Below, in pieces: positions 41,416 to 42,114 of a stretch of DNA of 47,313 nt. Source of the stretch: a virus. The position numbers were made by a program, and so were the translations under genes. The notes under the pieces were generated by a model. That model was given only the letters and a program-made list of their open reading frames with translations. It did no database searches and was not told the DNA's origin. The DNA is taken from positions 1-47,313 of the IMG/VR virus record IMGVR_UViG_3300042922_000870. The stretch is one strand, 5' to 3'. Position 1 is the stretch's first letter. Every line of letters starts with the position of its first letter.

Positions 41416-41598
41416 TTACTCCTTTGGCTGCACTGGCAGATCTTCCTTAATAGAGATTGTCACATTTTTCCCATCATATGATTTCAATTCTTCAAGAAGA
41501 TCATAAATAAAAATGCCACTTTTATCTTCCTCAGTTACTTCCATAACTTCTGTATTGAGCAAACCTTTGAATTGAATCGAGTTGTTGCGTTTAGCCAT
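41416..41598 (-). CDS. yonK: YonK family protein
   Basis: 60 residues from ATG 41598 behind AAAGGGAGAT. The sequence MAKRNNSIQFKGLLNTEVME, then YDLLEELKSYDGKNVTISIK, corresponds to the small SPbeta YonK protein (about 63 residues, structure known, function unknown), as I recall it, including the GKNVxIxxKE end. Its 5' leader contains the folded RNA at 41636-41733. It precedes the phosphoesterase gene by 4 nt. Confidence 0.8.
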   Translation of the reverse strand: MAKRNNSIQFKGLLNTEVMEVTEEDKSGIFIYDLLEELKSYDGKNVTISIKEDLPVQPKE

Positions 41599-41635: not shown

Positions 41636-41733
41636 AGTCGATAGCAGGGCGGCGTATCCTGCATTTCTGATAACTCAGAACGCACCCAACGTGCGGTCTG
41701 AGCGTGTAGAGAACCTTTTCTACCTTATCGACT
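41636..41733 (-). ncRNA. Candidate structured RNA, cloverleaf-like four-way junction
   Basis: Minus-strand transcript of 98 nt. P1: AGUCGAUA (41733-41726) with UAUCGACU (41643-41636), 8 bp. P2: GUAGA/UCUAC, 8-nt loop containing GG. P3: CUCAGA/UCUGAG plus CGCAC/GUGCG with one C-U mismatch and loop GUUGG. P4: GCAGG/CCUGC, 9-nt loop. All stems are perfect by complementarity. Located between HU stop and YonK start with no ORF. It is not a tRNA: P3 is too long and there is no TTCRANYC loop. UUCUGAG can also pair with UCAGAA just downstream, giving an alternative hairpin. The GC content is well above the neighbourhood. Function unknown; riboswitch, attenuator, RNase target or stable RNA are possible. 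Confidence 0.65.
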
Positions 41734-41793: not shown

Positions 41794-42114
41794 TTATTTA
41801 ATTGCCTTTTTCAAAGCAGATGCTGGCTTGAATGCTGGGGCTTTTGATGCTTCAATTTGAATCGTTGCCTGTGCTTTTGCTGCTTCTGGATCGACACCTT
41901 GTTCTTTAAGATCTTTCAAGAGTTTTGGATTTACACCTGGACGAGCTGCACGATCACGTACTTCGAAATTACCAAATCCATATATACCAACCTTATCTCC
42001 TGCGGATAGTGCTCCAGTAATTGTTTCAAATACAGCATCTACTGCGGCTACTGCTGCTTTCTTCTCTAGTCCTGTTTTGTTAATTACTTCAATCGTCAAT
42101 TCCTGTTTATTCAT
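41794..42114 (-). CDS. HU family DNA-binding protein (YonN-like)
   Basis: 106 residues from ATG 42114 with CAGGGAGATT upstream; a longer frame to 42189 has no site. N-terminal NKQELTIEVINKTGLEKKAA, then DKVGIYGFGNFEVRDRAARP and KAPAFKPASALKKAIK are the HU/IHF helices, saddle and C-terminus. The arm is longer than in HU (about 90 residues), with an insertion NPKLLKDLKEQGVDPEAAKA between the strands. Histone-like architecture protein. SPbeta YonN is an HU homologue beside yonO, so the pairing of RNA polymerase and HU is conserved. Confidence 0.92.
   Translation of the reverse strand: MNKQELTIEVINKTGLEKKAAVAAVDAVFETITGALSAGDKVGIYGFGNFEVRDRAARPGVNPKLLKDLKEQGVDPEAAKAQATIQIEASKAPAFKPASALKKAIK

Follow-up and report, generated by a model that had tools for sequence, protein, structure and literature searches.

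Among the described systems most similar to the one studied here are the type III toxin-antitoxin (TA) systems ToxIN, CptIN and TenpIN, in which an endoribonuclease (in our case a predicted one) is accompanied by a structured, loop-paired RNA on plasmids and prophages. In type III systems the RNA inhibits the protein toxin by binding to it; it is a series of short tandem repeats and lies upstream of the toxin gene, in one operon and with a terminator between the two. The ToxN toxin has a MazF-like fold, and escape mutants of phage TE carry pseudo-ToxI, a toxin-less phage RNA antitoxin that neutralises the host toxin (PMC5086642). A precedent for an orphan Rfam motif beside a toxin gene is the AbiF/RCd22 pair of Clostridioides difficile, where motif RF03085 belongs to RCd22, an antitoxin RNA that binds the toxin protein and acts in trans (PMC12373285). 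PBECR proteins, encoded by phages and mobile elements, are predicted to be RNases, and two residues are named for the family (PMC5512222). The RNA family skipping-rope (RF02924) is depicted in Rfam 14 with a covarying pseudoknot (PMC7779021); neither Rfam nor the readable papers give a function or a partner for it.

The RNA gene described here is a skipping-rope RNA, and many of its relatives adjoin genes of PBECR2 or PBECR3 nucleases. In contrast to type III RNAs it lies 3' of the putative toxin gene, whose strand it does not always share; it usually has a promoter of its own and is followed by the terminator, and its fold is tRNA-like. Unlike the type III repeats it is a single unit nearly everywhere; tandem copies, sometimes of two sub-types and standing by one toxin gene or alone, were seen at L097:74-363, L116:5663-5855, L139:10001-10202 and G322:C70:15355-15680. 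The linked toxin is, by assignment, of the BECR fold and not MazF-like. The AbiF/RCd22 pair differs in having an unrelated toxin (Abi_2, Cas13-like) and an upstream RNA with two repeated motifs, and pseudo-ToxI is a short repeat found in escape mutants, whereas skipping-rope is a conserved RNA gene in several large phages.

In the window (the whole 47,313-base virus record) the RNA occupies positions 41636-41733 of the minus strand. The initial annotation had delimited an unassigned RNA at exactly these positions; cmscan returned identical bounds but assigned the RNA to RF02924, with 62.7 bits against a cut-off of 36.7. The match spans the complete model (positions 1-80 of 80), and RF02924 was the only Rfam family above its cut-off in the record. 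The 98-nt RNA thus matches the family at full length over the curated cut-off and has the same stems and pseudoknot, its P3 arm being about 18 nt longer than that of the consensus. The strand on which the RNA had been described had to be corrected, since Rfam scored the minus strand only, and this is the coding strand of both flanking genes: the gene of an HU-type DNA-binding protein (yonN equivalent; 41794-42114, PF00216, 6.6e-24) upstream, and yonK (41416-41598, PF09642, 3.6e-23) downstream. A fold beyond chance was confirmed on both strands (z about -4 against 200 shuffles): predicted energies were -38.4 kcal/mol for the plus strand (z -4.39, none of 200 shuffles as good) and -39.1 kcal/mol for the minus strand (z -3.97, one of 200 as good). 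The near-palindromic nature of the stems accounts for the good fold of both strands; a plus-strand RNA was rejected, as the Rfam match is confined to the minus strand and the plus-strand fold mirrors the same palindromic stems. The earlier description held good in that the RNA is structured, non-coding and of cloverleaf-like shape, and that it belongs to the late region of an SPbeta-like phage, where HU, YonK and a polymerase of the YonO type are encoded nearby. ARAGORN found no tRNA gene in the whole window, and identity of the segment with a tRNA or tmRNA was rejected, since the same program detected neither there. The sequence TATACATATTCAAGAGATGTA, considered as a possible promoter motif specific to the phage ahead of the RNA, was uninformative because it occurs only once in the window.

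Analysis of the structure was based on 55 RNA copies. To obtain them, viral contigs were searched by pattern twice and contigs of bacterial genomes once, and covariance models were then applied. The pattern of the genome scan was drawn from the P4 region, and therefore conservation of P4 is partly by construction; second copies found in the same genomes by covariance model are exempt from this. Another pattern, GARATGNNGGAAAGGCNGCCNNC, hit seven viral loci, all without a skipping-rope match, and these were dismissed as chance hits. The RNA is a four-way junction closed by an 8-bp stem, as had been proposed, and RF02924 has a pseudoknot feature in addition. In the window copy (minus strand) the closing stem P1, in acceptor-like position, is formed by 41726-41733 (5' strand) and 41636-41643 (3' strand); it follows the Rfam structure line, and two-sided changes were seen in all eight pairs. 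The P2 arm (41706-41723, D-arm position) has a 5-bp stem and the loop AAAGGUUC, and the P4 arm (41644-41662, T-arm position) a 5-bp stem and the loop AUACGCCGC, both according to the Rfam structure line, the fold and covariation. The P3 arm (41667-41704, anticodon-arm position), whose length varies throughout the family, was placed by the fold, by covariation and by compensatory changes in close relatives.

Among the 51 distinct sequences 96.0% of the pair cells held standard pairs, as compared with 68.8 ± 0.8% in shuffles, and two-sided changes occurred at 26 of 31 pairs; shifting the pair partners by 1-3 columns abolished the covariation signal. Compensatory stem changes in related phages, the absence of which would have spoken against the RNA, were present also at short distance: in the two nearest phages (L003, L004) two P3 pairs differ from the window copy, C34-G58 being replaced by U-A and A35-U57 by G-C. 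The P2 and P4 loops are mutually complementary (290 vs 231.6 ± 9.0, reached by none of 2000 shuffles; 26 distinct loop pairs). Their pairing is 3-7 bp long across the family, the common form being GGC or GGU with GCC, and in divergent copies it extends to 5-7 bp (CGUGGCA/UGCCACG, CGUCCC/GGGACG, CGUAG/CUACG). In the window copy this complementarity identifies GGU in the P2 loop (41713-41715) and GCC in the P4 loop (41651-41653) as kissing partners; one of the three pairs is G-U. As to the alternative pairing (a switch) suggested by the initial annotation, covariation across the family supports a single fold plus a P2-P4 loop-loop contact.

The junction linkers, read on the minus strand from closing stem through P2, P3 and P4 back to the closing stem, are 2, 1, 4 and 0 nt long, as in tRNA. 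The tRNA structure line obtained from the same program has identical linkers and a 5-bp last arm. Skipping-rope thus shares with tRNA the 5-bp last arm and a contact between the loops of the first and third arms, but its closing stem is of 8 bp instead of 7, its P4 loop of 9 nt instead of 7, and its P3 is highly variable; what the structure lines have in common is the junction plan only. The resemblance is a topological one, and mimicry of tRNA would be a possible interpretation of it.

Several features indicate that the RNA is transcribed independently of its neighbours. An intrinsic terminator follows 62 of 87 copies (1.3% in shuffles), and an exact TATAAT was found within 36 nt upstream of 45 of the 83 copies that are not from large phages (6.7% in shuffles). 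At six loci (L216, L217, L218, L228, L246 and L247) the RNA immediately follows the 3' end of the toxin gene but is on the opposite strand, and must therefore be its own gene. No common upstream gene was present among 26 prophage contexts, and an upstream gene lay within 40 nt in only three of them, which led to rejection of a conserved protein antitoxin for the prophage loci; for one subgroup a caveat applies, as some plasmid PBECR2 genes have an HTH-like gene just upstream.

Inspection of the 20-kb neighbourhoods of the RNA revealed one recurrent gene, coding for a protein of about 125 amino acids directly upstream of the RNA and on the same strand, which was identified as PBECR3 (PF18812) or PBECR2 (PF18810). 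A profile scan of 52 neighbourhoods and, in addition, the window found PBECR in 30 of the 52, in every case as the gene immediately preceding the RNA in the same orientation, and at no other place. The linkage also held when the search started from the protein, which is the stronger test. In 291 Clostridia genomes 28 of the 31 standalone PBECR3 ORFs (up to 200 amino acids; one of the 28, G185, came from a second scan) had the RNA 75-198 nt downstream on the same strand, with a chance expectation well below 1, against only 2 of the 12 long or fused PBECR3 ORFs. The three exceptions were G292, with a degenerate RNA copy at the expected place, G294, a 24-bit PBECR3 fragment, and G111 (L156:1435-1878), an apparently intact gene with undetectable skipping-rope. 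Four more Clostridia RNAs adjoin PBECR2 genes, so that 33 of the 52 RNAs were PBECR-linked and 19 had no detected PBECR. The association is thus asymmetric, the toxin lacking the RNA in 3 of 31 cases and the RNA lacking a detected PBECR in 19 of 52. In 250 Bacilli genomes all five PBECR3 genes over the cut-off had the RNA at their 3' end. All 17 plasmid PBECR2/3 loci chosen by protein similarity alone, several near-identical pairs among them, had it as well; they came from Brevibacillus, Priestia, Enterococcus, Streptococcus thermophilus, Sporosarcina, Macrococcus, Fusobacterium, Treponema, Azospirillum (L216, where the RNA scored only 30.9 bits), Bacillus velezensis, B. subtilis (pTA1060) and Planococcus. 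The RNA was found also at both Streptococcus phage PBECR loci whose record runs past the gene. At two loci (L109:4394-4843 and L120:5949-6343) the PBECR gene is split by a frameshift and the adjoining RNA is intact.

All six proteins tested against Pfam scored above the cut-off of PBECR3, PBECR2 or both, with up to 113.9 bits vs 30. H36 in the N-terminal helix and a T or S at position 99 were present in 23 of 23 sequences; because these are the residues described for PBECR, their conservation suggests that the standalone proteins are probably active enzymes. A structure model of one member (pLDDT 94.0, pTM 0.87) was compared with known folds using Foldseek and VIA-align. The nearest were BrnT (Z 7.0), the Salmonella RelE-type protein 7vd7 (Z 6.6) and CdiA-CT of E. 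coli NC101 (Z 6.3), and many RelE, HigB and YoeB toxins were also among the top matches; all Z values were below 8, and the matches, which agree with the Pfam assignment, are only suggestive. PADLOC and NCBIfam have no model for the toxin, and a sequence search of the PDB with it gave no significant match. Some Streptococcus phage PBECR3 proteins adjoining skipping-rope are annotated as 'spbA protein', and related plasmid proteins as 'plasmid-related protein'. According to Lereclus and Arantes (1992), spbA is reportedly a locus securing the segregational stability of the Bacillus thuringiensis plasmid pHT1030. By transfer of the annotation carried by some of the proteins, SpbA would be a PBECR3 protein. 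The pHT1030 locus resembles the module studied here through this annotation; an RNA is not reported for it in the readable sources.

The large phages carry the RNA alone. It stands just after the HU gene in the window phage, in its 164-167-kb relatives (L003, L004) and in SPbeta, where the copy, at NC_001884 60719-60828 in the yonN-yonK gap, scores 29.6 bits, below the Rfam cut-off; the deposited record of Bacillus phage Goe14 already labels skipping-rope at the same locus. In a 122-kb phage (L104:8412-12010) it is embedded among 16 arrayed tRNA genes, the next of which begins 10 nt further on, and in another large element (L099) beside two tRNA genes. The PBECR3 profile matched neither the window nor the other phage records, some of which are partial; as control genomes were likewise silent, absence of the gene is likely rather than proven. 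The window copy has kept 21 of the 22 bases conserved in toxin-linked copies. Plasmid pTA1060 of B. subtilis carries a PBECR2/skipping-rope module, and the host species of SPbeta therefore meets such modules.

A nuclease rarely found without the RNA, an RNA that often stands alone and has its own promoter, carriage by plasmids and prophages, and the association of the name SpbA with plasmid stability together form the signature of a toxin-antitoxin system. We consider it fairly probable that skipping-rope is the RNA antitoxin, type III-like but of a new architecture, of a two-gene addiction or abortive infection module whose toxin is a standalone PBECR2 or PBECR3 (SpbA-like) ribonuclease, that it acts as a tRNA-shaped decoy and that the solo copies of phages are protective. 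According to this model the RNA would be a free-standing, abundant transcript that neutralises the toxic nuclease by binding it directly and blocking its active site. To a BECR-fold nuclease acting on tRNA, an RNA with a tRNA-like plan could pose as tRNA; judged from its topology and from the fold of the protein, it may be a tRNA-shaped pseudo-substrate. If the plasmid or prophage were lost, or if an infecting phage stopped transcription, the RNA would decay and the toxin would be freed. Phages making the RNA alone, from their late region, would be protected against the PBECR modules of the host. That the window phage is probably shielded in this way by a solo antitoxin is the simplest reading, and the least certain step, of the proposal. 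In more general terms, and only tentatively, the modules may constitute an unrecognised, widespread class of TA systems, in which BECR-fold (PBECR/SpbA) ribonucleases are controlled by a tRNA-mimicking RNA antitoxin and large phages keep solo copies of the RNA for counter-defence, either in tRNA arrays or at a non-coding site of the late region.

Exactly the same linkage would be seen if the RNA were not an inhibitor but a cofactor or guide needed by the PBECR nuclease in a ribonucleoprotein effector, and a strong promoter of its own would suit such an RNA too. An activating partner appears improbable to us, as a constantly needed cofactor would seldom be kept alone, yet 19 of 52 RNAs are without a detected PBECR, the frameshifted toxin genes at L109 and L120 retain an intact RNA, and large phages maintain solo copies with 21-22 of the 22 conserved bases. 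For a guide one would also expect a variable targeting stretch, but here it is the single-stranded segments that are conserved. Regulation of the toxin mRNA as in type I systems, by antisense pairing or by the RNA serving as 3' element of the toxin transcript, is very improbable. At the translation start, duplexes of cognate pairs were indeed predicted to be a little more stable (residual -2.0 kcal/mol, p 0.005), but an equal excess was found outside the gene, at -300 (p 0.004) and at -200, so that it must be attributed to base composition; antisense pairing was rejected since the signal is unspecific to the translation start. Moreover, copies 3' of the gene are found on both strands, and in phages the RNA stands alone.

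A different question is whether the copy in the window phage has ceased to be an antitoxin and has adopted a function of the phage's own, such as control of the late operon, a processing signal or a packaging-related RNA. It would fit this view that SPbeta, Goe14 and the two relatives of 164 and 167 kb all have the RNA behind the HU gene, and that these copies have no terminator of their own, but we regard it as rather unlikely, because the window copy retains nearly all bases conserved in toxin-linked copies, and in Geobacillus virus E3, which has the same gene order, the gap between the HU and PhoH-like genes is only 64 nt, too short for the RNA. The L104 and L099 phages, which have the RNA in or beside tRNA genes, make a fixed cis role in the phage unlikely. 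The same applies to the control of yonK suggested by the initial annotation: in most genomes the RNA has a promoter and a terminator of its own and stands as a separate gene next to an unrelated nuclease gene, whose strand it may or may not share. Of the roles offered there, a separately made, stable RNA species fits best, in agreement with the antitoxin reading.

The RNA family and its occurrence in an SPbeta-like phage are already known. A link of skipping-rope or PBECR to an RNA antitoxin was not found in the searchable literature. Relative to the searchable papers both the antitoxin reading and the association of the RNA with PBECR/SpbA nucleases are new; the original family description may mention the neighbour gene. 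If the proposal is true, an orphan RNA family acquires a function, and a large nuclease family of phages and plasmids, together with the plasmid-stability locus of 1992, its missing partner. RNA antitoxins would then reach the BECR/RelE fold, by means of an RNA built on the plan of tRNA, and the model phage SPbeta would possess an RNA-based counter-defence gene open to deletion tests in Bacillus subtilis.

Some further observations concern the surroundings of the RNA. The Bacillus-plasmid RNA (RF01691) comes next after the PBECR2/skipping-rope pair on plasmids of B. velezensis (L217:1990-2045 and L218:1881-1936). In the yonN-yonK gap that holds skipping-rope, a second orphan Rfam RNA, DUF3800-VIII (RF03075), was located in SPbeta (NC_001884; L219:4410-4475), Goe14 (L222:3454-3519) and phi3T (L223:3673-3738). 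This 1.7-kb gap of SPbeta-like phages may be an island in which RNA partners of mobile-element genes occur without these genes. In two large relatives of the window phage (L096:8647-9840 and L100:10259-11452) a PhoH-like gene with a PIN-like N-terminus is inserted between skipping-rope and the next gene, which in L096 is yonK; the window phage is without a PhoH-like gene at this place, and Geobacillus virus E3 has the PhoH-like gene there and no room for the RNA.
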